A stretch of 35,634 nt of DNA from Clostridiales bacterium (GTDB taxonomy: Bacteria > Bacillota > Clostridia > Oscillospirales > Oscillospiraceae), in contig JAAYOP010000090.1 of the NCBI GenBank assembly GCA_012520295.1, positions 1 to 35,634 on the forward strand, written 5' to 3'. Both the position numbers and the translations under genes were made by a program. This document shows positions 1,955 to 19,335 of this stretch, one piece after another (position 1 is the first letter of the stretch; every line of letters begins with the position of its first letter). Below the pieces are notes generated by a model. It saw only the letters and a program-made list of their open reading frames with translations, did not search any database and had not been told where the DNA came from.

Positions 1955-2980
1955 TTATCCCTTTTCGGGCGGCACATTCTCCCCTTCCGGGAGATTACTA
2001 TCCCCTTCCTCTGCTGACGGTTCTTCAGGGAAATCAGCTTTTTGTATAAGGGTATTATATATATCCGATAGCTCCTGGTCTTCCTCTTCCTGTTCAGGAA
2101 GAGTTTCGGAATCCTCCACCCGAGAAGCCAGGTGTCTGTTTACATAGAGCTCATCCGGTTCGTGGTTCTTTCCAATCCTGTTATATAAGAGAAGGGCAAG
2201 GGAGCCTATTACACATATAAGCGCCACCAGTTGCGAGACTCTCAGCTGGGTTCCGAAAAGGAAAAGACTGTCCTGCCGAAGCCCTTCTATATAGAGTCTC
2301 CCCAGTCCATACCATCCCAGGTACATTATGAATACTTCCCCGTCGAACTTCCTTCTTTTTGAATAGAAGTGGAGAAGTATGAAGCCCAGGACATTCCATA
2401 AACTCTCATACAGGAAGGCGGGGTGGTAGTAAAAGGTTCCATATTGATTGGTGAGGCCCATTTTCCAGGGCACACTGGTTTTATAGCCGAAGGCTTCCCT
2501 GTTGACAAAGTTGCCCCACCGGCCAACTGCCTGTCCTATCAGAAGTCCAAGGCCTGAAATATCTGCCACGGCCCCCAGCTTAACCTTTTTAACTCTTGAG
2601 AATATCAGGGCGCCGATAAAGGCAAATATAACGCCCCCGTATATGGCAAGACCGCCTTCGCGAATATTTACAATTCTGACGATGTTTTCCCACAAGCTTC
2701 CCTTGAAGCTCCAATCGTAGAACACAACGTAATACAGTCTGGCGCCCACCACACCTATGGGAACAGCGTAAATAAGCAGGTCCACAATATTGTCATCATT
2801 CAGGCCAAACTGCTTGGCCCTTTTAAAAGCGTATATTACTGCAAGGAGAAATCCCAGCGCGATTATTATACCGTACCAATAAAACTTCCATCCGAAAAGA
2901 ACAAAATACGGCTTGAAATCCAATATGAATTTTTCGCCCAGGATTGGAAAGGAAATTGTCGCATCGCTCATATCCGGCAT
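1955..2980 (-). CDS. lgt: prolipoprotein diacylglyceryl transferase
   Basis: Lgt moves a diacylglyceryl group from phosphatidylglycerol to the lipobox cysteine of prelipoproteins in the cytoplasmic membrane, the first step of lipoprotein maturation. The Lgt signature GRWGNFVNREAFG is at residues 153-165, and the loop REGGLAIYGG is at 107-116. The position occupied by the important His103 in E. coli Lgt appears to be Tyr here. About seven hydrophobic segments span residues 20-265. The protein is longer than the usual ~260-300 residues because of a ~60-residue hydrophilic tail (after about 275) in which about a third of residues are acidic. The ATG at 2980 has AAAGGGG about 10 nt upstream. The gap to the upstream M16 gene is 18 nt, so the two are co-transcribed. 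Confidence 0.95.
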   Translation of the reverse strand: MPDMSDATISFPILGEKFILDFKPYFVLFGWKFYWYGIIIALGFLLAVIYAFKRAKQFGLNDDNIVDLLIYAVPIGVVGARLYYVVFYDWSFKGSLWENIVRIVNIREGGLAIYGGVIFAFIGALIFSRVKKVKLGAVADISGLGLLIGQAVGRWGNFVNREAFGYKTSVPWKMGLTNQYGTFYYHPAFLYESLWNVLGFILLHFYSKRRKFDGEVFIMYLGWYGLGRLYIEGLRQDSLFLFGTQLRVSQLVALICVIGSLALLLYNRIGKNHEPDELYVNRHLASRVEDSETLPEQEEEDQELSDIYNTLIQKADFPEEPSAEEGDSNLPEGENVPPEKG

Positions 2981-2998: not shown

Positions 2999-4279
2999 TC
3001 AATTGTCCGCCTCATTGGGCCATACAATCGATATCGCCAGGCGCTCAGGATTAAAAGCGTCTGAGATGAACCTTTGTATTTCGTCAATTGATATTTTATC
3101 ATAATAATCCAGACCCTTCATAGGGTCATAGCCTTTGAAATGACCGTCAGCAAGATAGGCTGTTATATTCTCCATATCGTCAAAGTCTCTCAGGTAGTTT
3201 CCGATGCTCGCTTTTTTGAGTCTCTCAAAAAGCTGTACATCCACGCCCTCGCGGCTTATCCTGTCCGCTTCCGCCGTAATCTCATCCATAACCTGGAGAG
3301 GCTCGCGGCTTTCACCCACCGCGCAGGCATACATCCCGCCTGGAACGTATGAAAAGCCGGCGCCAAATCTATTATTAATCAGTCCCTTGGCATACATTCT
3401 TGCATACAGGGGCGAGGACGTCCCCGCCAGTACGGCACAGGCCAGATTTCCAAGCAGGAGAAATCTGAAATACTCCTCTCCGTTATCGGGCTGCTCAAAC
3501 TTTGAGCCCATTCTGAAGAGAGGAGCCGCCACTTCCATATTAACCTCATACTTCTTCTTGTTGGGATACAAGGTCTCGGGCTCACCGTAGTCCCTCTGGG
3601 GAAGCTCGCCGGCCTCCTGCACAATTATCTCCCGGGCAGTATCGATAACCTTCTGGGCGTCCAGATCCCCGGCAACGCATAAGACCATATTGGACGGATT
3701 ATAGAAGACCTTGTGGCAGTCATATAGCGTGTCCGCCGTGATCTCAGCAATGCTTTCAACGGTTCCGGCAATTGGGTCTCTCACTGGATTATGGGCGTAA
3801 AGGGCCCTCAAAAGATTTTGATAGACTGCACGGGTGGGGTTATCCTCGCCCATGAGTATTTCCTGGGCTATTATCCCCTGCTCCTTTTCCACGCTCTCCG
3901 GCGTAAAATACGGGATAGAGACAAAGCTCAGCAATATCCTGAGGTTATCATAAAAATTATCAGCGCATTCAAAGTGATATGCAGTTATTCCTGTGCTCGT
4001 ATAGGCATTTGGAGACGCCCCGTTTAAAGACAACTGCATAAGGGCGTTGCCCTCCTCGGTGTCAAACATTTTATGCTCGAGAAAATGCGCGACTCCGGCC
4101 GGAGTATCCACCCACTTTCCACCAAGGGCAAACCGCCTGTCACACCCGCCGTAATTGGTGGCGAAGAATGCGAAATACTTGTTGAAGCCCCTTTTGGGAA
4201 GCACATATATGTTCAGCTTGTTATCAAGGACATGGTGATAAACCTTTTCACCTATTTTCTCATATTCGATAAGCTTCAT
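2999..4279 (-). CDS. M16 family zinc peptidase (YmfH-like, catalytic partner)
   Basis: This is an insulinase/processing-peptidase family protein with the inverted zinc motif HxxEH intact: HFLEH at residues 65-69. A glutamate at about 133-140 could be the third zinc ligand. It resembles Bacillus YmfH, which sits next to a related protein lacking the zinc site. The same pairing is seen here: the upstream M16 gene overlaps it by 4 bp (ATGA at 4276-4279), so translation is coupled and a heterodimer is likely. No signal peptide is seen, so the protein is probably cytoplasmic. The substrate is unknown; related pairs (AlbE/AlbF) process peptides. The 18-nt gap to lgt places it in the same operon. 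Confidence 0.88.
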   Translation of the reverse strand: MKLIEYEKIGEKVYHHVLDNKLNIYVLPKRGFNKYFAFFATNYGGCDRRFALGGKWVDTPAGVAHFLEHKMFDTEEGNALMQLSLNGASPNAYTSTGITAYHFECADNFYDNLRILLSFVSIPYFTPESVEKEQGIIAQEILMGEDNPTRAVYQNLLRALYAHNPVRDPIAGTVESIAEITADTLYDCHKVFYNPSNMVLCVAGDLDAQKVIDTAREIIVQEAGELPQRDYGEPETLYPNKKKYEVNMEVAAPLFRMGSKFEQPDNGEEYFRFLLLGNLACAVLAGTSSPLYARMYAKGLINNRFGAGFSYVPGGMYACAVGESREPLQVMDEITAEADRISREGVDVQLFERLKKASIGNYLRDFDDMENITAYLADGHFKGYDPMKGLDYYDKISIDEIQRFISDAFNPERLAISIVWPNEADN

Positions 4280-5562
4280 ATCTGAGGCACCTCCTGCTTA
4301 TTTCTAAGGAAATAAACGGTATCAAGACAGACGCTCCGGGCTATTTTTTCAACTTCTTCCTTGGTAACTTTTTCAGTAAGAGCCGCATATTCCTCAAGTC
4401 CGTAGTCCAGGCCGTCCACAGCCTGGCCCAGGTAGAAGGCATCCATAGAAGCAGCGGAATCCAATGCGGCTTTCAGAGACGACGAAACGACTTTTTTCGC
4501 CCCGTCCAGCTCTTCCGGAGAAATCTCACCCCTTTTAACAGCCTCAAGCTGGGTGAGTATTTCGCCAAGGGCCTCATCGTATTTATTGAAATCAATCCCC
4601 GATATAACATACATTACGCCCTTGTGCCTGTCTATCATGGAGCTTGTGTAGTAGCACAGGGACAGTCTTTCACGCACATTTAAAAACAGCTTGGAGGATA
4701 TGCCGCCCCCGTATACGGCGTTGAAAACCGTTATCGCCGCAAGTTCGGGAGAACGCATAATCTCACCAAGCCTGAATCCCAGGGATAGCTTTCCCTGGGT
4801 AACATCCAGCATTTCCACATGGTAATTGGGTTCTCCGCAGCTTATGCGCACCTGGGTTGCCGCTTCGTCTGCAATTTCTCTTCTCGGAAGTATTTTAAAG
4901 GCTTCCAGCACGGCGGCTTCCACCCTTTCAGGAGTTGCGCTGCCGCAGTAAAACATCTGTATCTCAGAGCCTTCGAGTATACTTTTATAGTGCTTTGTCA
5001 GCGCGGATGGGGTTATCTTCTCCGTTGACTGCACAGACCCCAACACATTGACGCCCAAATCCTCGTCCTTGAACATTATCTCCCTTAATCTCAGAAGAGA
5101 ATAGGTGATTTTATCATTCAGATTGGCTCTGATTTTTTCGCACTGCTTTTCCTTCTCGGAAGCAACATAATCGTCCAGCAGGTTGCCGCCTTTTGTGACG
5201 GGTGCCAGAAGCACATCGCCCACAAGACCTATAACGCGCTCGAGAAGTGAGGTCTCGCCTGGAATATACTTATCGTCTACAAAATTTGATATAAAGCCTG
5301 TACATTGGATTTCACCGGCCAGCCTCACCACCGGCTCTATGGCGGCACCGTACAGGTCATTGAGCGCCGCCGCCATGCTCTCCATATCGGGATATTTTGC
5401 GCATCCCCTTCTCAAAACGTTTGGAATCAAAGCGTTTAGAGATGCGTTTTCTCTATTTAACTGCTGCAGAAGATATACGCTGAAGTAGCTTGCCTTGAAC
5501 TTATCGGTTGTTATGCAGGTCAGTTCCACATTTGGCATGATCTGTTTTCTAATGGCGTCCAT
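4276..5562 (-). CDS. M16 family protein without zinc site (YmfF-like)
   Basis: An M16-fold protein of about 428 residues that resembles its downstream neighbour in length and layout but has no HxxEH. The matching N-terminal region (around NRENASLNALIPNVLRRG) carries no histidine pair. It is therefore probably the non-catalytic half of a heterodimer with the HFLEH protein, as for YmfF/YmfH; this is inference from family knowledge. The reading frame extends upstream to a TTG at 5598, but AAGGGAG (5574-5580) precedes ATG at 5562 by 11 nt, so I prefer that start. Its stop overlaps the next start by 4 bp. A promoter at 5723-5751 lies upstream. Confidence 0.85.
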   Translation of the reverse strand: MDAIRKQIMPNVELTCITTDKFKASYFSVYLLQQLNRENASLNALIPNVLRRGCAKYPDMESMAAALNDLYGAAIEPVVRLAGEIQCTGFISNFVDDKYIPGETSLLERVIGLVGDVLLAPVTKGGNLLDDYVASEKEKQCEKIRANLNDKITYSLLRLREIMFKDEDLGVNVLGSVQSTEKITPSALTKHYKSILEGSEIQMFYCGSATPERVEAAVLEAFKILPRREIADEAATQVRISCGEPNYHVEMLDVTQGKLSLGFRLGEIMRSPELAAITVFNAVYGGGISSKLFLNVRERLSLCYYTSSMIDRHKGVMYVISGIDFNKYDEALGEILTQLEAVKRGEISPEELDGAKKVVSSSLKAALDSAASMDAFYLGQAVDGLDYGLEEYAALTEKVTKEEVEKIARSVCLDTVYFLRNKQEVPQI

Positions 5563-5722
5563 AGTTCTCAAAGCTCCCTTCACACAGCATGACGACAAGA
5601 TGACCAGGGCATATCATAAAAACCCGTGACCGATATGCCAAAATCACATGACGGCATATAAAATTGCACCAGCGAAGTCGGTTTCGGCATAAATACTATC
5701 ATTTTTTCACAAATATATCATA

Positions 5723-5815: not shown

Positions 5816-8800
5816 TTATTCCTTATTTTTGGATATATCTACGAAAATATTTCCCATTGATGCCTCTTGTGTTTCATTCTTTTTCATTGTTTTTTCAACC
5901 AGTATCCTGTGCTTTCCTCCCCTCGAAACCCTAATTTCAAGTATTCCCTCAGCAGTATTTACATATGCCTTATACCCATCCCAGACCTGAGGGAGGCGCG
6001 GCCGCAGCACAAGCTCTCCGTTTACCTTCCTGATACCGAGAAGATCCTCCACAACGATTCTATAATACCATGCCGCCGCTCCAGTATACCAGCTCCATCC
6101 TCCTCTGCCTGTGCACTGGGGATTTGCGTACACATCCGCCGTAATGACATAGGGCTCGGTTTTATAAGTTTCCTGGCGGTGACTCATGGGGGCAAGAGCT
6201 CTGAGCATATTCCACCCTTTTTCCGTCATCCCCGCCTTCAGGCAGGCCGCGGCAAGCCATATGGCGGCATGGGTATACTGGCCTCCGTTTTCTCTTGTTC
6301 CCGGAAGATAACCAATAATATACCCCGGATTAGGACCCTTTCCGTCAAAAGGCGGTGTGAACAGCTTGACAATTCCATTATTCCGGTCAAACAGGTGAGT
6401 TGCGGCACTGTCAAGAGCCTGCTTGATTTTGTCCTGGCTGCCAAAGCCGCTTAATACCGCAAAGCTCTGGGCAATCGAGTCTATTTTGCATTCCGCTCCG
6501 GCTTCGCTGCCTAGGGGCTTGCCATTGTCGTAGTAGCCTCTTATATACCATTTGCCGTCCCATGCCTTGTCGGCCGCGGTTCCCAAAGCCAGAGCCTGGC
6601 TTTTATACCGCGCTGAGAGTCCGTTTTCGCCCATATGAGCACATATATCTGAAAATCTCTCCATTACCAGGGCTGCAAACCACGTCAGCCAGACGCTCTC
6701 ACCCTTTCCCTCGGCTCCCACCTTGTCAAAGCCGTCATTCCAGTCTCCTGTGCCAATGTGGAGCAGGTTGTGTTCTCCGGTCCCACGGCTGAGAACCATT
6801 TCAATTGCCCTTATACAGTGGTTGAATACCGTGTCCGGGGCCCCGGCCGGCTCAGCCTGCTCATACCTGTCATGCTCTCCCTGCCTTAAAACATGGGAGC
6901 GCAAATAATCAGCCTCTTGCTTTAAAATCCCATAATCTCCGGTCTTTCCGATATATACGACAACCGTATAGGGAAGCCAGAGCAAATCGTCGCTAATTCT
7001 TGTTCTGACGCCCTTATCCGGCTCCCCGTCTCTCCCCTTGTGCCACCAGTGCTGGACGTCGCCCTGCTCATACTGGTGCCTGCAGGCTGCTAAAATCTGT
7101 TCTCTGACAAGCTGGGGAGCGCAATCGGTCAGGGCGCACACATCCTGAAGCTGATCTCTGAAGCCGTATGCTCCTCCGCTCTGATAAATGGATGTTCTGC
7201 CCATAACCCTGCAAGCCAGTACCTGATAGAGCGCCCAGCCGTTTATATAGTTGTCCAGCTCCTTTGAAGGCGTCTCGATGGTTATGCCGCATACAAGGCT
7301 TTTCCAGTATTCAATGGTCTCCGACAGCGCATTTTTGGCGGTTTCAGGATTTGTCAATTTCCTGAGCTCATCCAAGTCATCCACTCCGCATACAAGAACC
7401 ACCGTTTCAGCCGCCTGGAAGTACGCACCGAAGCAGGGGTCAAGGGCCGCTCCCACACGGCCGTCCAAAAGCCCCAGCCGCCAGGAGGTTTTGTCGCAGG
7501 TAAATTCGCTTACAGCCGTATTGGACACAAGGGTAAAAACCCCCGAGCTGTCATCCCTGTTCAGATTTCTCGCCACAAAAGCATCATTCTTCAAGCAAGT
7601 CAGTACACTCCTGGACTCGTCCTCCTCGGAGCCTAAAATCAAACCTGTAAAATATTTGATTTTATCGCTGTCGGTTTTATTTTCAATATCTATGATAATA
7701 ACCCGCGCGTCTATTCTCGGATGGACGAAGGCGGTCATTTTAACATTGGTCCTGTCGATTGTTTTCTCCCAGGAGGCAAATCCGAAGCCGTATGTGACCC
7801 GGCAGGGTATACCATCGGTTGTGGCAAAAAGTGATACGCTCTTTCCCGTCCTGCTCAGCTCTATTGTCTCCGGCCCCTCTATAGAAAGGGGATCGTTATG
7901 CCAGGAGTTAATCCGAAACTCCCTGGCATTGCCATGCCACATATTGCCTGTACCCGCATCGGTGCAAAGCCAGCCAAAGCCCCCGTTTGCGAGAATATGG
8001 CTCCAGGCTATGCTGTTCAGGTTTCCTTCGGTTTCAAAGACAAAGCTCCTGTCGGAATCAAACTCACAGGAGGGGATTTTATCCACCTTGCTGTCCGCGA
8101 TTTTCAGTAGCCTGTCTTTGGGACGGAGCTGTGTGTCGCGCTGTACCCGCTCCACACCCTCGGAGAAGTTTATCACCACATCGGACATGGCAAGCACACC
8201 CACAACTTCGGCGCTGTTTCCGTCAATAAGATGGATACCCGGCGACATGTTTACATGGCTCTCCCTGCCCAGTTTCCTGATGGCATCGCTCAGCAGGGTC
8301 CTCACCGGCTGGTGATAGCTTCCACCGTCGTCAATTATATAAACCAGGTCATAACGGAACCCGTTTTGGGAGATAAGCGCGTGTTCTCTTATCAGCTTGA
8401 TGCTTTTTTCCGCCTCTTCCTCATTATTTACCCGGGCTGTTAAGACGGGAAAGTCCCCAGATATTCCATAGCGCCAAAGGCCCTGCTTACCTTGACAGCC
8501 TGCTTCCACATAACCGGCAAGCTTTGTCCTCTCACTTGTCAGGTACACAAGACTGCTCAGCCTGTACATTGCCTCGTCAACTTCATTGGGCAGCATTTCA
8601 AGGGCCTTTGCCTTGTTGTCCAGATACGAAATGCCCCTGTGCTTTTTTATTTTCAGTATTCTCTGGGCGCTGCAGGCCGCAGTTTCTTCATCCTCAGACA
8701 CGGCAAGGGCAAAGTGAATCCTCCTGCTCTCGCCCGGCCTTAAGCTGAATTTAAGGCTTGCATATACACAGGGGTCCAGAACGGAGCCTATGCTGCCCGT

Positions 8801-11800
8801 GGTTTCTCTGCCGGCAGCCGCCCGGAGAGAAAGGAGGCCACCCCTGCCCAAAGCCTGCTCTCTTGAGGTCTCAAAATCCATCTTTTCGCTGCATGAAAAG
8901 CACAGCGCAACAGGTCTTACTCTGGCGCCGTAACGCCTTTTAACAATAATTCCGTAATCATTCAGAGCGGTTTCCATGGACAGCTTTGAAAAAGCCGGAT
9001 GCGCCCTGTAGTCCCTTTCAGGCGACAGAACAGGCTCAAAGAAGCATATCAGCTGCAGGTCACGGGTCTCGGAGGAAGCATTTCGAACAGTGACATCCCT
9101 ATGCTCCCCGATCTCACCCTGGGGCACAAAAACCTCCACGCATGTTTCCAGCCCCTTTGTCCTGGAGTAAATTCTTCCATGTTCTCCTGTAAACTCACAG
9201 CGGAAAACAGAGTTCGGATTATAGTCGGGGGCAGGCTGAAGGGCGAAGAAGTCCGTACCAGATTTAAGGAAAAAGCTTATTCCAAGATCCTGCCCAAAGC
9301 GATCGCTGCTAAACCTGCACACCCTGATATCTTCCCAGGAGGAGCGGCTTGTCCCCAGCTCGGACAGCAGGACCGTATACGCGCCGTTTGACAGCAGTGT
9401 GCACTGGGGATTTAAGATATCTGTTCCGGTAATATTCTTTTTCCAAATCTCTGTAGGTATACGGTCGGGCTTTTCCGGCACATCCGCGCCCTGTCTTGTG
9501 GTTATCACATGGCCCACAGGCCCCTTCTCCTGAAGAAGCTCGGCATGGCCGGACATGGCGGGATTGGCCATGAACCTGCGCTGCATAATAAAATCCCTCA
9601 GCACATTGTCGATGGCCAGTATGCTCATACCTAAATGGTGCACCATGAAGCATTTTACTATTTCATGCTTGCCGTTCCCGGCTCTGGCGGGCGTGAAGTC
9701 CGCCGCTTCATAAAAACCGTATCTGCCCTCCATATTCAGCTTTTTAAGTCGCCTGAGATTCTTAAGAGCCGATTTAAGGTTATAGGGCAGGGTCAGAAAG
9801 GTGGAATAGGGGGAAACCACCGTTTCCCTCTCCATACCTCTTTTGAGAGCCAGGCTTTGTACACCGTGGGCTTTATACTTGTAGTTCAGGGCGGTATCAA
9901 AGGCATAGAAGGAACTCTCGGAAATACCCCACGGTACACAGTTTTTCTTCTGGGCATAAAGGCAAAATTTCAGGCTCTCGTGAATAAGGGAGTTTTTGTA
10001 GCAGGGCATCAGGAGATTTGGCATGAAATATTCAAACATCGTCCCGGTCCAGGATGCCATGCCGGTGCGTCCGTCAACGCAGGCAAGAACTCTGCCCAGC
10101 TTCTGCCAGTGCTTCTTTTCCACCTCTCCCCTTGCGATTGCAATATAGCTGGTCTGTCTCGCCTCGCTGGCCAGCAGGTCATACCAGCCCTTTGTCAGGG
10201 TGTTTTCCGTTGCGTCAAAGCCAATGGAAAAAAGCTTTCTGTCCTCATCATACAGCGGTTTGAAGTTCATTTCCGATATCAAATTTTCAAGCCTTGTGAT
10301 AAGTTTCTGTTCCTCAAGCTCCCTGAGCCCCTCTATGAGCGCGATTATGCAGCCCACCAGGTTTCCGCTGTCAACGGTGGATACATATCTGGGCTCCAGG
10401 GGCTTTAGATTCCTGATATCATACCAGTTGTATAAATGCCCATTCCATTTTGGGAGCCTTTCCACGGTGGACAGAATATTCTCAATAAGACCCACAGCCC
10501 TGTCCCTGGTGCACAGGTGAAGGTCATAGGCAGCCAGAACCGAGAGCATTGCCAGTCCGATATTGGTGGGCGATGTCCTCTCTGCCGTGCCGGTGGCCGG
10601 CTCCTCCTGCCAGTTGTCGGGAGGAAGGAAGCTTCGCTTAGGAACCAGCAGCCTATCAAAATATCTCCATATATCTGACGCGCACCTGTTCAGGAAATTC
10701 CTGTCCTCCTCCGAGATGATTATCTCATCCTTTTTTTCACGGCTGAAGACACACGCCAGAGCCGGTGTAATCATCCATATAAGGCCTATGGCCATACCCG
10801 CCGGAAAAGGAGACAAGGTGAGGGCAAGTATACCTGCGGCCACGGAAAAAAACATTTTTCTGAAATAAAAAATATAGCCCTCCGGGTTGGCTGAAAGAGA
10901 ATCCTCGGCGGTCACCCACGCCAGCATGTTCTTTTTTGATATCAACATTCTGTAAAGAGCCGTCAATATGGCATGCATGCTGACATATGCGGTATATGGC
11001 AGCAGAAGAAACTGCAAAAAAGTTTGCATTACTGCCCCGGCAAAGCCGGAGATGACGCTGGACCTGTACTTGGGCTTCAGAGCGCCCCCCGGCCTGAGCA
11101 TAGTGTCCGCCGAGCTGATAAGAAGCCTGGAGGAAAGGGATATGAGAGCGGCCACCACGGCATAGACCACTGCTCTGCCGCTCAAAAACATGCTCAGATA
11201 TACACAGATAAAAAGAGCCGGCGGCGTAAGGCTTCTTCTCAGGTTGTCGAATATCTTCCACTTGTTTATTGAATCCAGCGGGTTTTCTATCTTTTCATTG
11301 TTCTCATTTCTTACCTTTTTAAAGATCCAGGGCAATATCTGCCAATCCCCACGCGTCCACCTGTGCATTCTGTCATAATAGGAGGAAGCTTTATGAGGAA
11401 AGCCATCGGTAAGCTCGGTGTTGCTTAAAAACCCACTGCGGACATAGGCTCCCTCAAGAAGGTCATGGGAGAGAATCCAGTTCTCGGGAAATCGGTGATT
11501 CAGGCAGGTGTGATAAGCGTCTACGGATACTATGCCCTTTCCGGTAAAGCTACCCTGGTCGAAAAGGTCCTGATATATGTCTCCCGCGTTGCTGGCGTAT
11601 GGGTCAATGCCTCCCTGTCCGCCGAATATGGCGGCAAAGTCACTGCGGTTCGCAGCAGAGAGATCCAGGGCAATCCTGGGCTGCAAAATACCATGACCGG
11701 AGCTTACTATTCCCCTCGCGGTGTCTACAACGGGCGAGTTTATGGGGTGCATAATAGCTCCCACCAGTTCTCTGGCCGTATCAACACCCAGCCTTGTGTC

Positions 11801-13444
11801 GCTATCGAGCAAAATCAGATATTTCACATCGTATAATTGCCCAGTCTCGTTTGAGCCGATGATAATTCCGCTTTTCTCCCTTTTTATCAGTCTTATAAGC
11901 TCTACTATTGCCCCTCTTTTTCTCTCCCAGCCCATATACCGCCTGTCCCTGGGATTGTAAGACCTTCTTCTGGAGAAAAAATAAAAACCTCCCCCGTATT
12001 TTTCATTCAGCTTGTTTATGGCTTCTTCCCCGTCCCGCAGGAGCTTATAATCCTCGGCAGTTATCTCCTTATCGGATTCCTTAAAATCAGCCAGCAGTCC
12101 AAATATAAGCTGAGTCCCGGCAGAACTGTTGGCCAGCTTATACTCTTCCAGCAGCTTGGCATATTTTGCGCAGGAAGCCCGGCTGTTCAGAAGCATGGAG
12201 ATAACACACAGGGTCCTGCCCTCCTCCGGGATACCCTCTTTTAACTCCAGTCTCGGCAGCCGGCAGGGCCTGGTAAATTTTAAAATCAAATAGTCCGCAG
12301 TATTTTTGACTATTTCAAATACTGGAAGAAACAAGAGGAAAAACAGTAGAGGCATATCAATAAAATACGCCACCAGCAAACTGAGAAACAAAGTTACCAG
12401 AATATGCGAGCCAATAAACAATGTCCCTTTTCTTTTCCTCTTGGGCCTGCCCAGAGGCTCTTCATATATATAGTATCCTACATGCGCCCTTCTGCCCTCA
12501 CCCTTTTCGGCCAGCTCAAGAATCCCTTTCGCCACCTCATGCTCGCTTTCCATTTCTGCTTCCGCCAGCCTGGCAATATCTCTCCTGTAAAGGCTCCGGC
12601 TTTCCTGGTCCATCCTCATGTAAATACCTGATGGGTCTTTGAGCATCAACTGCTCAACCCGGCTGACCTCTTCAAGGATTTTTGAGGCATCCATGGAGGA
12701 CAGCAGCCTCAGAGACGAAAAAATCGTCGCCACCTGAGCGATCATCTCCTCATGGCGCCCTCTGGCTTCGATGGCCTTTTGGCTTATTTCATCGGGAATA
12801 TCCTCCCCGCTGCTCTTCAGCTTCTCGGCAAGTTCCTCGGCATAAAAGCAGTTGGATTTGTCATTTCGCTCCAAGCACAGTATCATATTCTCAATACTCC
12901 TTGAAGTCTCATAGAGCATTGATACAAGAGCGAGTTTTACCATAGGCACAAAAAGCGAAAGCTCTTTTTCAGTCAATAAAAGCGCGTTCTGGAAATTCTC
13001 CAGAAAACACCTAAGTCTTTCTGCATTGACCTCTCCCTTGCCCGAGCGAACCAGTGAAAAGGCAGCGGCATGTATGACAGGCCTTTTATATTCCTTTGCC
13101 TGCGGCAGAGCCTTCGCCTTTTTCAAATCGGCTATTACAGACTTTGCCTCCCTTTCGGCTATATATCTGTTATCAATTATCCACTCAACTTCTGTGGGAA
13201 TTTTCACCGCAGACGCTGCGTACTTTTCAGCGTAATAACAAATATTCTTTAGTTTTTTCAGCTTTTTTTCCAGGTCCGAAGCGGATTTTCTTGCGCTGAT
13301 TTCGCCTGAAACCGCAATGGTTTTCGCTGCGTTTTCCGAGTACTGGGCCAGTCTGTCCATATCTATATAGAGGAATGTGTTCTTTTCGCTGACATTGTTC
13401 ATAATCTTATTCCAACCTCGTATATTCTCTTGCTTGAAACTCAT
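5816..13444 (-). CDS. cyclic beta-1,2-glucan synthase (NdvB/Cgs type, GT84 + GH94)
   Basis: A giant membrane enzyme of about 2,540 residues that builds and cyclises beta-1,2-linked glucose chains from UDP-glucose. Domain order (residues counted from the upstream ATG at 13483): a helical N-terminal part; hydrophobic segments at about 350-405; a GT84-type glycosyltransferase with DSDT near 560 and RWTRGDWQ near 709; several membrane segments at about 735-960; a glycoamylase-like domain with PWGISESSFYAFD near 1189; then two GH94-like regions. The second contains SGGAYGFRDQLQD near 2106 and TGDWNDGFD near 2247, where the family's catalytic Asp lies. In studied Cgs enzymes the GH94 part trims chain length by phosphorolysis. 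The start is uncertain: in-frame ATGs occur at 13483, 13444 and 13402, all with weak ribosome binding sites. It is a single-gene unit, divergent from ylxM-ffh. The product could instead be a linear or modified glucan. Confidence 0.88.
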   Translation of the reverse strand: MSFKQENIRGWNKIMNNVSEKNTFLYIDMDRLAQYSENAAKTIAVSGEISARKSASDLEKKLKKLKNICYYAEKYAASAVKIPTEVEWIIDNRYIAEREAKSVIADLKKAKALPQAKEYKRPVIHAAAFSLVRSGKGEVNAERLRCFLENFQNALLLTEKELSLFVPMVKLALVSMLYETSRSIENMILCLERNDKSNCFYAEELAEKLKSSGEDIPDEISQKAIEARGRHEEMIAQVATIFSSLRLLSSMDASKILEEVSRVEQLMLKDPSGIYMRMDQESRSLYRRDIARLAEAEMESEHEVAKGILELAEKGEGRRAHVGYYIYEEPLGRPKRKRKGTLFIGSHILVTLFLSLLVAYFIDMPLLFFLLFLPVFEIVKNTADYLILKFTRPCRLPRLELKEGIPEEGRTLCVISMLLNSRASCAKYAKLLEEYKLANSSAGTQLIFGLLADFKESDKEITAEDYKLLRDGEEAINKLNEKYGGGFYFFSRRRSYNPRDRRYMGWERKRGAIVELIRLIKREKSGIIIGSNETGQLYDVKYLILLDSDTRLGVDTARELVGAIMHPINSPVVDTARGIVSSGHGILQPRIALDLSAANRSDFAAIFGGQGGIDPYASNAGDIYQDLFDQGSFTGKGIVSVDAYHTCLNHRFPENWILSHDLLEGAYVRSGFLSNTELTDGFPHKASSYYDRMHRWTRGDWQILPWIFKKVRNENNEKIENPLDSINKWKIFDNLRRSLTPPALFICVYLSMFLSGRAVVYAVVAALISLSSRLLISSADTMLRPGGALKPKYRSSVISGFAGAVMQTFLQFLLLPYTAYVSMHAILTALYRMLISKKNMLAWVTAEDSLSANPEGYIFYFRKMFFSVAAGILALTLSPFPAGMAIGLIWMITPALACVFSREKKDEIIISEEDRNFLNRCASDIWRYFDRLLVPKRSFLPPDNWQEEPATGTAERTSPTNIGLAMLSVLAAYDLHLCTRDRAVGLIENILSTVERLPKWNGHLYNWYDIRNLKPLEPRYVSTVDSGNLVGCIIALIEGLRELEEQKLITRLENLISEMNFKPLYDEDRKLFSIGFDATENTLTKGWYDLLASEARQTSYIAIARGEVEKKHWQKLGRVLACVDGRTGMASWTGTMFEYFMPNLLMPCYKNSLIHESLKFCLYAQKKNCVPWGISESSFYAFDTALNYKYKAHGVQSLALKRGMERETVVSPYSTFLTLPYNLKSALKNLRRLKKLNMEGRYGFYEAADFTPARAGNGKHEIVKCFMVHHLGMSILAIDNVLRDFIMQRRFMANPAMSGHAELLQEKGPVGHVITTRQGADVPEKPDRIPTEIWKKNITGTDILNPQCTLLSNGAYTVLLSELGTSRSSWEDIRVCRFSSDRFGQDLGISFFLKSGTDFFALQPAPDYNPNSVFRCEFTGEHGRIYSRTKGLETCVEVFVPQGEIGEHRDVTVRNASSETRDLQLICFFEPVLSPERDYRAHPAFSKLSMETALNDYGIIVKRRYGARVRPVALCFSCSEKMDFETSREQALGRGGLLSLRAAAGRETTGSIGSVLDPCVYASLKFSLRPGESRRIHFALAVSEDEETAACSAQRILKIKKHRGISYLDNKAKALEMLPNEVDEAMYRLSSLVYLTSERTKLAGYVEAGCQGKQGLWRYGISGDFPVLTARVNNEEEAEKSIKLIREHALISQNGFRYDLVYIIDDGGSYHQPVRTLLSDAIRKLGRESHVNMSPGIHLIDGNSAEVVGVLAMSDVVINFSEGVERVQRDTQLRPKDRLLKIADSKVDKIPSCEFDSDRSFVFETEGNLNSIAWSHILANGGFGWLCTDAGTGNMWHGNAREFRINSWHNDPLSIEGPETIELSRTGKSVSLFATTDGIPCRVTYGFGFASWEKTIDRTNVKMTAFVHPRIDARVIIIDIENKTDSDKIKYFTGLILGSEEDESRSVLTCLKNDAFVARNLNRDDSSGVFTLVSNTAVSEFTCDKTSWRLGLLDGRVGAALDPCFGAYFQAAETVVLVCGVDDLDELRKLTNPETAKNALSETIEYWKSLVCGITIETPSKELDNYINGWALYQVLACRVMGRTSIYQSGGAYGFRDQLQDVCALTDCAPQLVREQILAACRHQYEQGDVQHWWHKGRDGEPDKGVRTRISDDLLWLPYTVVVYIGKTGDYGILKQEADYLRSHVLRQGEHDRYEQAEPAGAPDTVFNHCIRAIEMVLSRGTGEHNLLHIGTGDWNDGFDKVGAEGKGESVWLTWFAALVMERFSDICAHMGENGLSARYKSQALALGTAADKAWDGKWYIRGYYDNGKPLGSEAGAECKIDSIAQSFAVLSGFGSQDKIKQALDSAATHLFDRNNGIVKLFTPPFDGKGPNPGYIIGYLPGTRENGGQYTHAAIWLAAACLKAGMTEKGWNMLRALAPMSHRQETYKTEPYVITADVYANPQCTGRGGWSWYTGAAAWYYRIVVEDLLGIRKVNGELVLRPRLPQVWDGYKAYVNTAEGILEIRVSRGGKHRILVEKTMKKNETQEASMGNIFVDISKNKE

Positions 13445-13525
13445 TGAGCCATTCCGATATGCTATATTTTTATAATAGAGCATGTAAATTATTCAGAGCC
13501 AAAGCTTCCCGACCCCGAATTTTGC

Positions 13526-13554
13526 ATTTTATGCCATTTGTTGAGCCCTTTCAG
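13526..13554 (-). promoter_or_regulatory. possible promoter for the glucan synthase gene
   Basis: On the minus strand CTGAAA (13549-13554) and TAAAAT (13526-13531) are 17 nt apart. This would put the transcript start near 13519, upstream of all three candidate ATGs. The -35 box matches only partly. Confidence 0.3.
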
Positions 13555-13599
13555 CGAAACACGACAAGTAAAATCGCTTTACGAAATTTTCATAATCTA

Positions 13600-13628
13600 T
13601 TGACATCGGACTTTTTTTATTTTAATAT
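13600..13628 (+). promoter_or_regulatory. strong sigma-A promoter for ylxM-ffh
   Basis: TTGACA (13600-13605) is a perfect -35 box, followed after exactly 17 nt by TAATAT (13623-13628). The spacer carries a seven-T run. An 8-bp inverted pair, TTACGAAA (13579-13586) and TTTCGTAA (13631-13638), brackets the promoter symmetrically and could be a binding site. The first gene downstream starts at 13693. Confidence 0.8.
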
Positions 13629-13692
13629 AGTTTCGTAAGGTGTATCGGCTTTACATATCATTGCATTGATGGATGCTGGAGGTGGAATTGTT

Positions 13693-14055
13693 TTGGATAA
13701 AACTGTGCGTATGACAATGCTCTTCGACTTTTATGGCAATCTGTTGACAGACAAACAAAAGGAGTATATAGACCTGTATTACAACGAAAACCTTTCACTG
13801 TCAGAAATCGCAGAAAACGACGGAATCAGCAGGCAGGGCGTAAGGGACATAATTATACGCGCCGAAGGGATTTTGGAAGCGACGGAGGAAAAGACCGGGC
13901 TGATGAGACGTTATTATGAAATGCAAAACGACATCAAGGCTATCGAAGGCTACCTTACCGAGATAGCCCAGCTAAACCAGACCAGATTTAAAAACGGCCA
14001 GTTGCTCAATCTATGCAATGACATATACAACAGACTGCAAGTTCTCAAAATATAG
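13693..14055 (+). CDS. ylxM: YlxM/p13-like DNA-binding protein, SRP-associated
   Basis: A small helix-turn-helix protein of the UPF0122 family that is encoded ahead of ffh in Firmicutes. In streptococci the family modulates SRP-FtsY GTPase activity. The sequence contains MTMLFDFYGNLLTDKQKEY and an HTH core LSLSEIAENDGISRQGVRD, both typical. The frame opens at ATG 13666, but GGAGGTG (13678-13684) lies inside that stretch and precedes TTG at 13693 by 8 nt. The protein then begins M-DKTVRMTMLFDFYG, matching the Bacillus YlxM start, so I take TTG and 120 residues. It is the first gene of the operon, 55 nt before ffh. Confidence 0.92.
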   Translation: MDKTVRMTMLFDFYGNLLTDKQKEYIDLYYNENLSLSEIAENDGISRQGVRDIIIRAEGILEATEEKTGLMRRYYEMQNDIKAIEGYLTEIAQLNQTRFKNGQLLNLCNDIYNRLQVLKI

Positions 14056-14110
14056 GTTTAGCATGAATCAATCCTGATTTTTCAGATGTTCCACCGGTTT
14101 GGAGGCATAA

Positions 14111-15463
14111 ATGGCATTTGAAAGTTTGACAGAAAAACTGTCGGCCACTTTTAAAAAGCTCAGAGGCAAGGGTAGATTGAGCCAAGCCGATATTAAAGAA
14201 GCCATGCGAGAGGTCCGCCTGGCTCTGCTGGAGGCCGACGTAAACTACAAGGTAGTCAAGGATTTTATCCAAAGGGTCAGCGAGCGCGCCAGCGGCGCGG
14301 ATGTGTTGGAGAGCCTGACTCCGGCCCAAATGGTCATCAAAATCGTCAACGAGGAATTGACGGCGACCATGGGCAGCGAAAACACAAAAATTAATATATC
14401 CTCAAAACCGCCAACCGTAGTAATGCTTGTGGGACTTCAGGGCGCAGGAAAGACGACAAACGGAGCAAAGCTGGCAGCCCATATGAAGAAAAACGGCAAG
14501 CGTCCTCTTCTTGTCGCCTGTGATATATACAGGCCCGCGGCTATTAAACAGCTTGAAACTGTGGGCGCCCAGGTGGACGTGCCTGTTTTCCAAATGGGTA
14601 CATCCGACCCGGTGAAAATAGCAAAGGCGGCTGTTGAGCACGCTAAAAAGCACGGAAACGACATGGTCTTTCTGGACACTGCCGGCAGGCTTCATATAGA
14701 CCAAGCCATGATGGATGAGTTGAAGGCCGTCAAAGCCGCAGTTAATCCCGACGAAGTCATGCTGGTTATCGATGCCATGACCGGTCAGGACGCTGTCACA
14801 ACGGCAAAAGCCTTTGACGATGCTCTGGGTATCGACGGTATTTTCCTCACAAAGCTGGATGGAGATGCCAGAGGCGGAGCGGCCCTGTCAGTCAGAGCTG
14901 TGACGGGAAAGCCAATAAAATTTGCCGGCATAGGCGAAAAGCTGGACGGTATTGAGCTGTTTCATCCGGAGAGAATGGCCTCCCGAATTCTTGGCATGGG
15001 CGATATTCTGACCCTTATAGAAAAAGCCGAGCAGAGCTTTGACGAGAAAAAGGCCATCGAGCTGACAAATAAGCTCATGTCCAACAGATTTACACTCAAC
15101 GATTTTTATGATCAGCTTGTCTCACTGAAATCCATGGGCTCCTTAAACGACATTGTGGGTATGCTGCCGGGAGTGGATACAAAAGCACTCAAGGGCGCGG
15201 CCATAGATGAAAAGGCTCTGGTTCGCACTGAGGCAATCATACAGTCCATGACCGAGGCTGAGCGGAATAACCCCTCAATACTAAACAGCAGTCGTAAAAA
15301 ACGCATCGCCGCCGGAAGCGGAACCCAGGTTGTGGATGTTAACCGTCTTCTCAAGCAGTTTAATATGATGCAGGACATGGCAAAGCAATTCGGCGGAAAG
15401 GCTGGTCGGAAGGCGCTGAGAGGCAAAGGCTTCGGTAAGAAGCGCGGGCTCTTCGGACTATAA
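14111..15463 (+). CDS. ffh: signal recognition particle protein Ffh (SRP54)
   Basis: The GTPase core of the signal recognition particle; with SRP RNA it takes nascent membrane and secreted proteins to FtsY. The 450-residue length is normal. The N domain covers about 1-95. The G domain has GLQGAGKT at 108-115, DTAGRLHID near 190 and TKLDGDARGG near 248. The M domain follows from about 325 with the RNA-binding region and ends in a basic, glycine-rich tail. ATG at 14111 has GGAGG (14101-14105) 5 nt upstream. Translation coupling with ylxM is not visible, but the 55-nt gap without a terminator indicates one transcript. No SRP RNA gene was recognised nearby. Confidence 0.98.
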   Translation: MAFESLTEKLSATFKKLRGKGRLSQADIKEAMREVRLALLEADVNYKVVKDFIQRVSERASGADVLESLTPAQMVIKIVNEELTATMGSENTKINISSKPPTVVMLVGLQGAGKTTNGAKLAAHMKKNGKRPLLVACDIYRPAAIKQLETVGAQVDVPVFQMGTSDPVKIAKAAVEHAKKHGNDMVFLDTAGRLHIDQAMMDELKAVKAAVNPDEVMLVIDAMTGQDAVTTAKAFDDALGIDGIFLTKLDGDARGGAALSVRAVTGKPIKFAGIGEKLDGIELFHPERMASRILGMGDILTLIEKAEQSFDEKKAIELTNKLMSNRFTLNDFYDQLVSLKSMGSLNDIVGMLPGVDTKALKGAAIDEKALVRTEAIIQSMTEAERNNPSILNSSRKKRIAAGSGTQVVDVNRLLKQFNMMQDMAKQFGGKAGRKALRGKGFGKKRGLFGL

Positions 15464-15567
15464 GCAAACTAAGCGAAACCGAATACAAAACGGACCGCTT
15501 ATAAATAAATTTATTTGGTTAAAACATCTGCCAAATATACACAATACTTTACGGAGGTGCACCTTAA

Positions 15568-15807
15568 ATGGTCAAAATCAGACTTCGCAGAATGGGCGCA
15601 AAGAAAAAACCTTTTTACAGAATAGTTGTAGCGGATTCCCGTTTCCCCCGGGACGGAAGGTTTATTGAGGAACTGGGAACCTATAATCCTCTCACTGAGC
15701 CTTCCGAAATCAAGGTCGACAAGGAGCGCGTTCTCAAATGGATGAAGGACGGCGCCCAGCCCACCGATACGGTGAAAAAATTGCTCAAAAAGGCCGGTGT
15801 TATCTAA
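15568..15807 (+). CDS. rpsP: 30S ribosomal protein bS16
   Basis: Primary component of the 30S subunit that binds 16S rRNA early in assembly. The 79-residue protein starts [25 protein letters not shown], the conserved bS16 opening, and contains [19 protein letters not shown] (15553-15559) lies 8 nt before the ATG. The 104-nt gap after ffh has an AT-rich palindrome (AAATAAATTTATTT near 15505) and a weak promoter-like TTGGTT, so an extra internal promoter is possible. It is followed by khpA at 34 nt. Confidence 0.98.
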
Positions 15808-15841
15808 GCATCTTTAAACCGAGTACCGAAAGGAAAGGATT

Positions 15842-16072
15842 ATGAAAGAACTTTTACTTTACATTGCACGCAACCTTGTTGACGAACCTGATGCTGTTAC
15901 GGTAACCGAGAGAGAAAAAGAAACGGGAACAGTTCTCGAGCTGCGAGTGGCAGCGGCCGACATGGGTAAGGTTATCGGGCGGCACGGCAGAATTGCCAGG
16001 GAAATCCGTACATTGGTAAAATCTCTGGCACAGCGCCACGGCAAAAGAGTCAGTGTGGAAATCATAGATTGA
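15842..16072 (+). CDS. khpA: KH-domain RNA-binding protein KhpA (YlqC)
   Basis: A 76-residue single KH-domain protein. The RNA-binding GxxG loop is GRHG within GKVIGRHGRIAREIRTLV, at about residues 42-59. In streptococci and other Firmicutes KhpA pairs with KhpB (Jag/EloR) and binds many RNAs, affecting cell division and elongation. It is placed between rpsP and rimM, as in most Firmicutes. AAAGGAAAGG lies before the ATG. It is followed by a hairpin cluster before rimM. Confidence 0.95.
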   Translation: MKELLLYIARNLVDEPDAVTVTEREKETGTVLELRVAAADMGKVIGRHGRIAREIRTLVKSLAQRHGKRVSVEIID

Positions 16073-16079
16073 ATATTGC

Positions 16080-16117
16080 CGCTCTTTCGGAGCGTCTCTT
16101 GATACGGGACGCTCTTT
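16080..16117 (+). promoter_or_regulatory. competing hairpins between khpA and rimM
   Basis: GAGCGTCTC (16090-16098) pairs with GGGACGCTC (16106-16114), giving a 9-bp stem (one wobble) followed by TTTAAATT, a weak terminator. The GAGCG at 16090-16094 can alternatively pair with CGCTC at 16080-16084 around a TTTCG loop. The two folds exclude each other, an arrangement typical of attenuators, but it may be chance. Confidence 0.4.
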
Positions 16118-16155
16118 AAATTATCCGGCGGAGAAAATTGAACGGAAGATTGATA

Positions 16156-16656
16156 ATGAAGAAGAAGCGTTATCTGGAAAGCGGGAAAATTGTAAATACT
16201 CACGGTATAAAAGGCGAACTCAAAATTTATCCCTGGTGCGACAGCCCAGAGTTTCTGCTGGATTTCGACAGGATTTATATCGACGACGTGCCTCATACCG
16301 TCCTGTCTGCCCGTGTGCACAAGGGCATGGTGATTATGGGGCTGGAGGGCATATCGGACATAAACGACGCCCAGCGCTATATTAATAAAGTGATTTTTAT
16401 TGACAGGCATGATGCCCGGCTGGAAGAGGGCGCGTTTTTCCTTCAGGATATTATAGGATTTTCCGTTTTTGATGAAAGAGGGACACGCCTTGGAATTCTC
16501 CAGGAGGTGCTCACCAGGCCCGCTGGGAACATATACGTTGTCGCCGAAAGCGCTGAAGATAAAAACGAGCGTCTTATCCCCGCTGTCCCTGAATTTATTA
16601 AAAAGGTTGACCTGGAGCGTGGCAAAATAATAGTTTCACTTATTGAAGGGATGTGA
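16156..16656 (+). CDS. rimM: ribosome maturation factor RimM
   Basis: 16S rRNA processing factor that binds uS19 and helps form the head of the 30S subunit. The N-terminal RimM domain shows GKIVNTHGIKGELKIYPW. The C-terminal PRC-barrel ends with LIPAVPEFIKKVDLERGKI, a family hallmark. Length is about 166 residues. Two starts are possible: TTG at 16138 after GGCGGAG, or ATG at 16156 with GGAAG 7 nt upstream; I prefer the ATG. trmD follows after 9 nt, the usual pairing. Confidence 0.95.
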   Translation: MKKKRYLESGKIVNTHGIKGELKIYPWCDSPEFLLDFDRIYIDDVPHTVLSARVHKGMVIMGLEGISDINDAQRYINKVIFIDRHDARLEEGAFFLQDIIGFSVFDERGTRLGILQEVLTRPAGNIYVVAESAEDKNERLIPAVPEFIKKVDLERGKIIVSLIEGM

Positions 16657-16665
16657 GTCTGCCCA

Positions 16666-17442
16666 ATGGCCGTTAGCATGCATATTGATATTATGACCCT
16701 GTTTCCCGATGCGGTGGAGAATATGCTGCGCACGAGCATTCTGGGCAGGGCCCAGGAGAGAAACATAATCCGCATCGAATGTCACCAGATACGGGACTAT
16801 ACCACCAACAAGCAGAAGCAGGTTGACGACTATCCCTATGGGGGCGGCATGGGAATGATTATGCAGGCCCAGCCCCTGCATGCCTGTTGGAAGTATTTGT
16901 GTGACCGGAGCGGATATCGGGTCCACACGATTTTAATGTCTCCCCAGGGAAAGACCTATCACCAGGAGGACGCAAAGCGCCTGAGTAACCTGGGCAGGCT
17001 TATACTGGTCTGTGGACACTATGAGGGGGTGGACGAGAGATTTATAGAAGAATGTGTGGACGAGGAAATATCCATCGGGGATTTTGTTCTGACCGGCGGT
17101 GAGATACCCGCAATGGCGGTGGCCGACTCCGTTTGCAGACTTGTTCCCGGCGTCCTCAAAGATGAGAGCTGCTTTACAGAAGAGAGCCACTGGAACGGCC
17201 TACTGGAATATCCCCAGTACTCCAGGCCTGAGATTTGGGAAGGCCGGAGAGTCCCCGAAATCCTCCTGTCGGGCCACCATGCCAATATCGCCAAATGGCG
17301 CAGGCGCCAATCTCTGAAGAGAACTCTCCTGCGCCGTCCCGATATGCTGGAAACCGCCCGGCTCAGTGAGCAGGACTTGAAGCTGCTGGATGAAATAAAG
17401 GCAGAAATTGAAAATGAAGGCAAAGGAGAAGGGCTCCAATAA
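16666..17442 (+). CDS. trmD: tRNA (guanine-37-N1) methyltransferase
   Basis: Methylates G37 next to the anticodon using S-adenosylmethionine, preventing frameshifts. The trefoil-knot (SPOUT) region shows LVCGHYEGVDERFIE, and SIGDFVLTGGEIPAMAVADSVCRLVPGVL follows. Upstream is YGGGMGMIMQAQPL. The 258 residues are slightly longer than the ~240-250 norm. ATG at 16678 (HIDIMTLFPD) is an alternative start that fits the family N-terminus better, but it has no ribosome binding site; GAAGGGA lies before 16666 at a long distance. It is the last gene of the operon; the terminator is at 17760-17816. Confidence 0.97.
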   Translation: MAVSMHIDIMTLFPDAVENMLRTSILGRAQERNIIRIECHQIRDYTTNKQKQVDDYPYGGGMGMIMQAQPLHACWKYLCDRSGYRVHTILMSPQGKTYHQEDAKRLSNLGRLILVCGHYEGVDERFIEECVDEEISIGDFVLTGGEIPAMAVADSVCRLVPGVLKDESCFTEESHWNGLLEYPQYSRPEIWEGRRVPEILLSGHHANIAKWRRRQSLKRTLLRRPDMLETARLSEQDLKLLDEIKAEIENEGKGEGLQ

Positions 17443-18345: not shown

Positions 18346-19335
18346 TTAGAACAGTAAACTGCTCATGCGGTCAACATGCTTTGAGACGGCTTCAAACACA
18401 CCGGGATAGGTGCTGCCGGGCCCTCCGGCGGTGAGGCAGGGTATAAAATACAGCTTTCCACACTCTCTGCAGACCTTTTCCACATGGGTGGCTATGAGCT
18501 CCTCTGTCCAGTTGTGGACGTCCAGAATCCCGTTGTTCAGCCCTCCCATGAAGGAGATTTTTCCGCCGTATTTTTTTATGAGCTCAGGCACGTTATTTGT
18601 ATCTACGCAGCCCTGAAAAACGTCTATGCCCATTTCTATCATATATGGCACCAGATTTGCAGCGTAGGAATCGCTGTGGTGAATAATAAGCTCAACGCCG
18701 TGGGATTTGTAATAGCCGTAAATCCTCTTATATGAGGGCACTATAAACTCTTCAAACATCTCAGGGGACATAAAGGACGACCTGTGGCTTCCCCAGTCGT
18801 CATGGTGGAGCAGGGCGTCAGGGTGATAGTTTTCACAAATAAGCCTTGCGTATTCCAGCTCCCAGTCCGTTATGTATTCAATAAGCTCCTTCATGGCCTC
18901 CGGCTCGGCATAGAAGTTTACCAGACAGTCGTCCATTCCCATCAGATAGTGAAGCTGCTCAAATACTCCGGGGGCAACCATGGCCGTGGCAAATTTCTCG
19001 CTCCTGTCTATCTTGTCAATCATGGGTTTTATCGCGTCCCACTCCTCCTGGGGAAAATCAAGACTTGGAGCCTTGACGGTTTCACGCCATCTAGTTATGT
19101 CCTTTACCACCTTATGGGCTTCATCGTGGACCGGAAAGGGCCCCGGCGTATTGGCCTGGTAGCGGATAGTCACTCCCCAGCTGTTGACACATTCACTGCC
19201 CGGACCTTCCAGCGCCATATTCCGCCTCATATACGGGTCTCCGAATATGAGCTCCAGAGCCTCAAACTGGTTAACAAATCGGTCGGGCTTCCCTCCCCGT
19301 ATGGTTTCAAGCATATTCCGTCTCTTTGTCAGCAT
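18346..19335 (-). CDS. UroD/MtaA-superfamily protein (corrinoid methyltransferase-like)
   Basis: A 329-residue TIM-barrel protein of the uroporphyrinogen decarboxylase superfamily, which also contains methylcobamide methyltransferases such as MtaA/MtbA. The conserved RQAGRY opening of true HemE is absent, so heme synthesis is unlikely. Zinc methyltransferases of the family use His-x-Cys plus a later Cys. Here the matching site reads HHSDSY (219-224), with Ser where Cys is expected, and the later Cys is present in FIPCLTAGG (C300). HHDDWGSH (177-184) is another polar cluster. No corrinoid protein or methyltransferase partner is adjacent. GGGAGG lies 7 nt before the ATG. The gene stands alone and is flanked by two copies of a 30-nt repeat. 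The substrate is unknown. Confidence 0.75.
   Translation of the reverse strand: MLTKRRNMLETIRGGKPDRFVNQFEALELIFGDPYMRRNMALEGPGSECVNSWGVTIRYQANTPGPFPVHDEAHKVVKDITRWRETVKAPSLDFPQEEWDAIKPMIDKIDRSEKFATAMVAPGVFEQLHYLMGMDDCLVNFYAEPEAMKELIEYITDWELEYARLICENYHPDALLHHDDWGSHRSSFMSPEMFEEFIVPSYKRIYGYYKSHGVELIIHHSDSYAANLVPYMIEMGIDVFQGCVDTNNVPELIKKYGGKISFMGGLNNGILDVHNWTEELIATHVEKVCRECGKLYFIPCLTAGGPGSTYPGVFEAVSKHVDRMSSLLF

Follow-up and report, generated by a model that had tools for sequence, protein, structure and literature searches.

The window, a stretch of 35,634 nucleotides, carries on its minus strand an ORF at 5816..13483 (2555 aa, the longest ORF listed) that encodes a predicted cyclic beta-1,2-glucan synthase (CGS). 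The initial annotation had placed this gene at 5816-13444; the ORF is real, but position 13444 corresponds to codon 14, and a comparison with homologous N-termini and with the protein of a member of the same genus indicates that the ATG at 13402 is the likelier start, giving 2528 aa. On the same strand, the next gene downstream encodes a yfmF-type M16 peptidase homologue (4276..5598), and a yfmH-type M16 peptidase homologue (2999..4279) and lgt (1955..2980) lie beyond it. On the plus strand, ylxM (UPF0122; 13666..14055) is divergent from the CGS gene, and is accompanied by ffh (signal recognition particle; 14111..15463). This arrangement, with CGS, yfmF, yfmH and lgt in that order on one strand and ylxM-ffh divergent, is widely conserved across the window and 20 further loci of the family; homologues of the window genes were found in 17 (yfmH), 16 (yfmF), 15 (ffh), 14 (ylxM) and 13 (lgt) of these 21 loci, some of which end early at contig ends. 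In addition, all 21 family CGS proteins fall within one clade of the tree (34 members, support 0.966). Because of this gene order and this single clade, the CGS gene looks ancestral in the Oscillospiraceae-like family, across which it appears intact and syntenic, and the same two observations leave a recent transfer of the window gene unsupported. No match to Rfam was obtained at the gathering threshold in the region 13300-16700 that could represent a leader RNA, and a simple scan found no terminator behind the gene. Elsewhere in the window, a 183-aa ORF (15859-16410, minus strand) matches neither Pfam nor NCBIfam, and the product of 18346-19335 (minus strand) resembles the methyltransferases MtaA/CmuA (uroporphyrinogen decarboxylase Pfam family), with scores under the NCBIfam cut-offs.

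Cyclic glucan synthases are known chiefly from Agrobacterium and Brucella. The gene had been read as encoding a complete enzyme of this type with intact DSDT, RWTRGDWQ and TGDWNDG motifs, and both claims are supported by the comparisons that we carried out. A phmmer search against the PDB matched the Agrobacterium Cgs (8rf0/8rf9) with E=0 in three stretches, the best covering residues 204-1058, and the cyclase of the Thermoanaerobacter italicus CGS (TiCGS; 8wy1) with E=8.5e-128. Pfam placed a Glycoamylase (CY) domain at residues 1104-1308, followed by the GH94 supersandwich and GH94 catalytic domains; no NCBIfam model matched the protein at E 0.001. According to these matches and a Kyte-Doolittle profile, the minus-strand coding region is divided into an N-terminal domain (12449..13402, residues 28-345, approximate), the first hydrophobic segment or segments (12305..12430, residues 352-393), a GT84 glycosyltransferase (11249..12286, about residues 400-745), further hydrophobic segments (10739..11221, residues 755-915), a compact GH189 cyclisation domain (9494..10696, residues 930-1330) and a GH94 phosphorylase-type C-terminal part (5924..9451, residues 1345-2520).

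The three motifs align with the Agrobacterium residues D624/D626, R773/R776 and D2528. In the GT84 domain, the alignment pairs Agrobacterium D527, D624, D626, Y694, D739, R773 and R776 with window D466, D560, D562, the primer Y629, the base D674, R708 and R711, W709 being adjacent; in the GH94 part, D2393 and D2528 correspond to D2110 and D2250, the latter pair by eye. In the GH189 domain, motif and spacing relate TiCGS E1356, E1400, E1442, H1536 and H1537 to the putative acid/base E1107, E1151, the putative nucleophile E1189, H1282 and H1283 (residue numbers from PMC10901819 for Agrobacterium and PMC10834661 for TiCGS). All 15 tested catalytic, primer and adjacent sites, W709 included, are invariant in all 41 clostridial proteins compared (the window, 20 of the same family and 20 of the same class), and in a set of 104 proteins with Gram-negatives among them, 13 tested sites are conserved in 101-104, with Y629, E1107 and E1189 present in every one. 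The loss of catalytic residues, which the initial annotation had named as the finding that would speak against its reading, therefore does not occur. The model of the GH189 domain (pLDDT 91) had 8wy1 as its best PDB match (TM 0.92 by query length), the next-best structures being the Agrobacterium Cgs and beta-1,2-glucanases. Work by others on this enzyme class has established tyrosine-primed synthesis, length control by GH94 and ring closure by GH189. The predicted window enzyme is a compact variant of this known family, and ordinary for its lineage.

The compactness lies in the CY domain, which measures 416 aa in the window. The segment at residues 1040-1070 comprises 31 residues, versus 127 to 272 in the long forms and 73 to 95 in four Bacilli, and the phmmer alignment leaves positions 142-294 of the TiCGS chain unmatched by the window protein. 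In Agrobacterium, the CY domain has an additional stretch of about 120 residues, with a 4-helix motif that participates in the dimer (PMC10901819). The compact form was observed in all 34 clade members examined and in several other lineages, some of them Gram-negative; it is a domain variant rather than a peculiarity of the window.

The window genome (96% complete) yielded a single match with the CGS protein as query, the CGS itself, with no second GH94 match, and a PF10091 search also returned the CGS only. In the family sample, 54/101 genomes matched the query and 49/101 were counted as having CGS, 4 of them in fragments, after leaving out five GH94-only matches. In the class, 134/245 genomes matched, 95 of them at E <= 1e-100, the value that we used to define CGS, and these spread across 42/72 labelled families. 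A set of 80 named loci includes Papillibacter, Flavonifractor, Clostridium gasigenes, C. methylpentosum, Tepidibacter, Geosporobacter, Paenibacillus and Bacillus, plus Gram-negative phyla. The occurrence of CGS in a Gram-positive spore former, to which the initial annotation had drawn attention, is confirmed, but it is neither rare, as the family count illustrates, nor unreported: the cyclisation domain of the Thermoanaerobacter italicus enzyme has been characterised (PMC10834661), and CGS genes have been noted in Clostridium tetani (PMC5584792) and Caldicoprobacter (PMC9124407). The review PMC11842490 labels T. italicus Gram-negative, which obscures the earlier study of a clostridial CGS. Some divergent gene forms were also encountered. 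In L023 (G275:C13:9013-16133) and in G342:C2:1477014-1484230, CGS is found as two adjacent frames (about 1888+790 aa and 1939+832 aa, respectively) with the break before the GH94 catalytic part, representing either natural split forms or frameshifts. In G137, G193, G328 and G173, frames of about 1830-1880 aa have a listed best match that covers only GT84, CY and the first GH94 part; these are possibly CGS proteins that lack the phosphorylase domain, or split genes. Near full-length matches with about 33% identity to the window protein are present on plasmids of Klebsiella, Enterobacter, E. coli and Pantoea (H11-H20, H26-H36).

As the initial annotation had remarked, none of the neighbours that we looked up encodes an NdvA-type exporter, and the ABC genes detected in the window are limited to those for CbiQ and two ATPases (25293-27860). 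A search of the genome, which it had also proposed, gave the same outcome: none of 70 matches to the ChvA-class model (TIGR01192, cut-off 585.4 bits) passed, and the best reached 296.7 bits. No genome out of 245 in the class passed either, with five candidates scored per genome, nor did any of 15 named CGS-bearing genomes, Gram-negatives among them. Rhodanobacter reached 581 of the 585.4 bits, which indicates that the model does detect close ChvA relatives where they are present. The idea that a missing ChvA is a Gram-positive peculiarity was rejected, since the Gram-negatives among the 15 named genomes did not pass the cut-off. These results suggest that other exporters serve, or that the glucan remains inside the cell.

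The DNA upstream of the CGS genes was tested for sporulation and housekeeping consensus sites, using simple patterns first and scored models afterwards. The cruder first scan detected strict sigma-F sites in 4/21 family loci (expected 0.16), sigma-E sites in 1/21 (expected 0.15) and a loose sigma-K pattern in 3/21, above the expected 0.5. The scored models revealed a conserved promoter of the sigma-F (forespore) type, GNATA-N14-16-GGnnAnAnT, the letters of which we take to be the consensus from forespore studies in B. subtilis. This consensus was compared with the description in PMC3789822, according to which the sigma-F promoters of C. difficile and B. subtilis are similar and sigma-F is marked by a G preceding the −10, and with the csfB promoter (GTATA and GGGGAGGCTA; PMC4383634), which scores 12/14 by hand. 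In the first set, a score of at least 13/14 was found in 14/21 family loci, versus 10/219 other genes in the same loci and 4.1% of dinucleotide shuffles. In the second set, 20/25 family loci reached this score and 15/25 were perfect, versus 3% and 0.08% of the shuffles; combining both sets, 34/46 loci score at least 13/14 and 12/46 fall below. A scan of named loci, drawn from 63 proteins of at least 2300 aa in the tree alignment after dropping L103, L123, L126 and L144 (without upstream DNA or alignment), covered 13 clade members, 21 other Clostridia, 4 Bacilli and 21 non-Firmicutes. All 13 full-length clade members have the site; L081, L083 and L085 duplicate loci of the earlier sets, so that ten are new, among which further duplicates from the same species are possible. 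The total thus amounts to 44/56 family loci with a forespore-type site (34/46 plus 10/10). Three CGS-bearing family genomes, G046, G095 (fragmented) and G090, lie outside the promoter scan. Among fragments scanned separately, L120 scored 12 and L097 13; a perfect sigma-F type site (14/14) precedes the CGS fragment L104 (Clostridiales bacterium 43-6), which is not part of the clade set that was scanned.

The distance between the end of the −10 element and the codon of window residue 45 has a median of 72 nt (quartiles 59.5-79) in 34 sites. T occupies each of the three positions after the −35 GNATA in 22 to 24 of these sites, a feature that the search did not ask for, and inspection by eye showed GGAGG stretches resembling ribosome sites, together with start codons, downstream of the site in many loci. 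Over the 824,598 strand-bases of the 21 family loci, 97 sites score at least 13 and 8 are perfect; half of the perfect ones (4/8) are CGS promoters. Outside the clade the site is rare, with 4/20 class loci versus 12/159 control genes, and 3/21 other Clostridia, 1/4 Bacilli and 0/21 non-Firmicutes in the named scan. The remaining candidates were discarded: sigma-E was found in 0/21 family loci at 12/13, sigma-A in 0/21 at 11/12 or better, and sigma-G in 4/21 at 11/12, but the latter score was also attained by 10% of the shuffles and 19/219 control genes. Intended as a positive control, a 371-aa cluster next to spo0A, presumed from its position only to be spoIVB, has a sigma-F site in 1/8 cases. 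In six of the 20 class loci outside the family (L057, L058, L064, L067, L070 and L075), a gene for a fusion of sugar-nucleotidyltransferase, hexapeptide repeat and phosphomutase lies directly upstream of CGS, in tandem. Two of these fusions were scanned with Pfam and NCBIfam and scored best, below the cut-off, with the mannose-1-phosphate guanylyltransferase model; a gene of this kind fits a requirement for a sugar nucleotide. None of the seven regions before the upstream gene (these six and that of L066, whose upstream gene is non-homologous) reaches a score of 13 for sigma-F. Taken together, the promoter data suggest that a sigma-F type promoter is common to most of the family CGS genes and that these belong to the sigma-F regulon.

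The window has a promoter-like element at 13466..13494 (minus strand), formed by GAATA (13494-13490), N15 and TATAAAAAT (13474-13466), which scores 12/14 against the sigma-F consensus and has a −10 without the GG. A score of 12 is attained by 24-32% of shuffles, and therefore this site is not significant for the species alone. L036, from the same genus, keeps CTGAAT and the 14-base block ATTATAAAAATATA at a like spacing, with flanks that align poorly by eye. Given that the site of the window is degenerate, we infer forespore control in this species from the rest of the family.

The spore-forming nature of the host, proposed in the initial annotation, agrees with the sporulation genes of the window genome, which has two Spo0A_C matches and one SpoIVA match. 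Across genomes, the presence of CGS is associated with these genes, as judged by statistics uncorrected for phylogeny and genome size, so that part of the link could be due to joint loss from reduced genomes. Among the good genomes of the family, SpoIVA is present in 35/35 with CGS versus 27/32 without (p=0.02), and the link is weaker for Spo0A (35/35 versus 29/32, p=0.10). When all family genomes were included, the values were 46/49 versus 39/52 for SpoIVA (p=0.013) and 48/49 versus 43/52 for Spo0A (p=0.016). In the good genomes of the class, SpoIVA occurs in 73/79 with CGS versus 74/118 without (p=1.6e-6), a result that is similar when CGS is defined at 1e-150; counted by families, the link is weak (37/42 versus 20/30, p=0.04). 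Genomes with GH94 only show no SpoIVA link (23/39 versus 69/111), and SpoIVA is absent from 13/95 CGS-positive genomes of the class, or 6/79 of the good ones.

From these observations, we consider it probable that, in this family, sigma-F activates CGS in the forespore and that the ring glucan serves spore formation. Judging from residue identity with the studied enzymes, the GT84 domain would glucosylate tyrosine 629 and then use UDP-glucose to extend a beta-1,2-glucan, which the GH94 part would trim, and the compact GH189 domain would release it from the primer and close the ring by transglycosylation. At the family level, the promoters suggest that most transcription of the gene follows asymmetric division and takes place in the forespore, in which case the ring glucan would be made on the forespore side during sporulation. 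There it could be an osmotic or protective solute of the spore core or, if exported, a periplasmic-type glucan in the intermembrane space of the forespore; since engulfment leaves the forespore with two membranes, the polymer may act there as periplasmic glucans do in Gram-negatives. More tentatively, we propose cyclic beta-1,2-glucan as a possible developmental product of endospore formation, made under sigma-F by the Oscillospiraceae forespore, where it may act as a periplasmic glucan or as a core solute.

The glucan could instead be produced by growing cells and secreted by a transporter other than ChvA, to serve in the envelope or capsule or as an osmotic glucan, with an incidental link to spores. 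The protection against hypoosmotic stress conferred by the Agrobacterium Cgs (PMC10901819) fits such a vegetative role, as do the non-canonical window promoter, the scarcity of sigma-F sites before most CGS genes beyond the clade, and the many ABC ATPase genes that could export it (the 70 ChvA-model matches, all below the cut-off). However, this explanation seems unlikely in view of the well-placed forespore-type promoters of 44/56 family loci, the fact that no sigma-A-like site of at least 11/12 was found in 21 family upstreams, and the association of CGS with SpoIVA. A cytoplasmic carbon reserve or compatible solute, in any cell type, from which the GH94 part returns glucose-1-phosphate, would be compatible with the results of the exporter searches in the window genome and the class, with the intact GH94 catalytic residues and with the single match to the CGS query and to PF10091 in the genome. 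Nevertheless, CGS no longer cleaves a ring once it is complete (PMC11842490), and a reserve would thus need a ring-opening enzyme; no ring-opening or degradative enzyme was found in the window genome by the CGS-query and PF10091 searches. As a reserve also leaves the promoter unexplained, we regard it as improbable.

It is very hard to reconcile the data with a protein that synthesises some other polymer, or with a decayed relic. The nucleotidyltransferase fusion upstream of 6/20 class loci, with its best, below-cut-off score to a mannose-1-phosphate guanylyltransferase, could point to another sugar. Against this, the tested catalytic and primer residues are conserved in 41/41 proteins, and the TiCGS cyclase, which has the same residues, is specific to beta-1,2-glucan (PMC11842490); the intact ORF, syntenic across the family, argues against a relic.

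The forespore-type promoters of most family members offer a lead on the question raised in the initial annotation, namely whether the glucan is destined for spore coat, cell wall or capsule, or for storage. Gram-positive CGS enzymes were known before; what is new here, and the part worth following, is the family-wide forespore-type promoter. In the open-licence literature, we found no description of cyclic beta-glucan acting in the forespore or spore. If the promoter is real, it would provide a group of clostridial CGS enzymes with a function that can be tested and add a polysaccharide to the endospore parts list, and it would bear on the likeness of the two-membrane forespore to the Gram-negative envelope. 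A developmental role, if true, would give cyclic beta-1,2-glucan a new role and compartment, and explain the presence of a periplasmic-glucan synthase in a monoderm. How Oscillospiraceae sporulate matters for the spread of gut commensals. The cyclic beta-1,2-glucan of Brucella is an activator of dendritic cells (PMC3499565).

Among known systems, the sigma-F regulons of B. subtilis and Clostridioides difficile (PMC3789822, PMC7438776, PMC4383634) have, like the CGS sites, a −35 GNATA and a G-rich start of the −10 about 15 nt away, the csfB promoter being an example; CGS is placed in the regulon by its sequence, and a cyclic glucan synthase does not figure in the available text of these papers. 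The C. tetani CGS is reported to lie in a lysA operon under a lysine riboswitch (PMC5584792), a regulation that differs from that in the Oscillospiraceae-like family. The 1,2-beta-oligoglucan phosphorylases (Listeria innocua, PMC3960220; LpSOGP, 5h3z) belong to GH94, like the C-terminal part of the window protein, but they stand alone, whereas the window GH94 is part of a CGS. TiCGS (8wy1; PMC10834661), the founder of GH189, is a clostridial CGS like that of the window, with which it shares the five E/H residues and the fold of the domain (TM 0.92); it differs in having a long helical insertion and has been studied as an isolated domain. Its cyclase is active on beta-1,2-glucan and inactive on other polysaccharides (PMC11842490), and the available text of PMC10834661 offers no physiological role for it. 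Finally, the Agrobacterium tumefaciens Cgs/ChvB (8rf0, 8rf9; PMC10901819) has the same NTD-GT84-TM-CY-GH94 architecture as the window CGS and shares all tested catalytic residues, its primer Y694 being equivalent to Y629. It is nonetheless distant, with a CY domain 32% identical to that of the window, and the plasmid copy of A. tumefaciens F2 has 33.3% identity to the window CGS. The Agrobacterium protein is also longer (2818 aa versus 2528-2555), the window enzyme being devoid of the long CY insertion. Unlike Agrobacterium, the window host has no ChvA-class exporter over the cut-off and carries sporulation genes.
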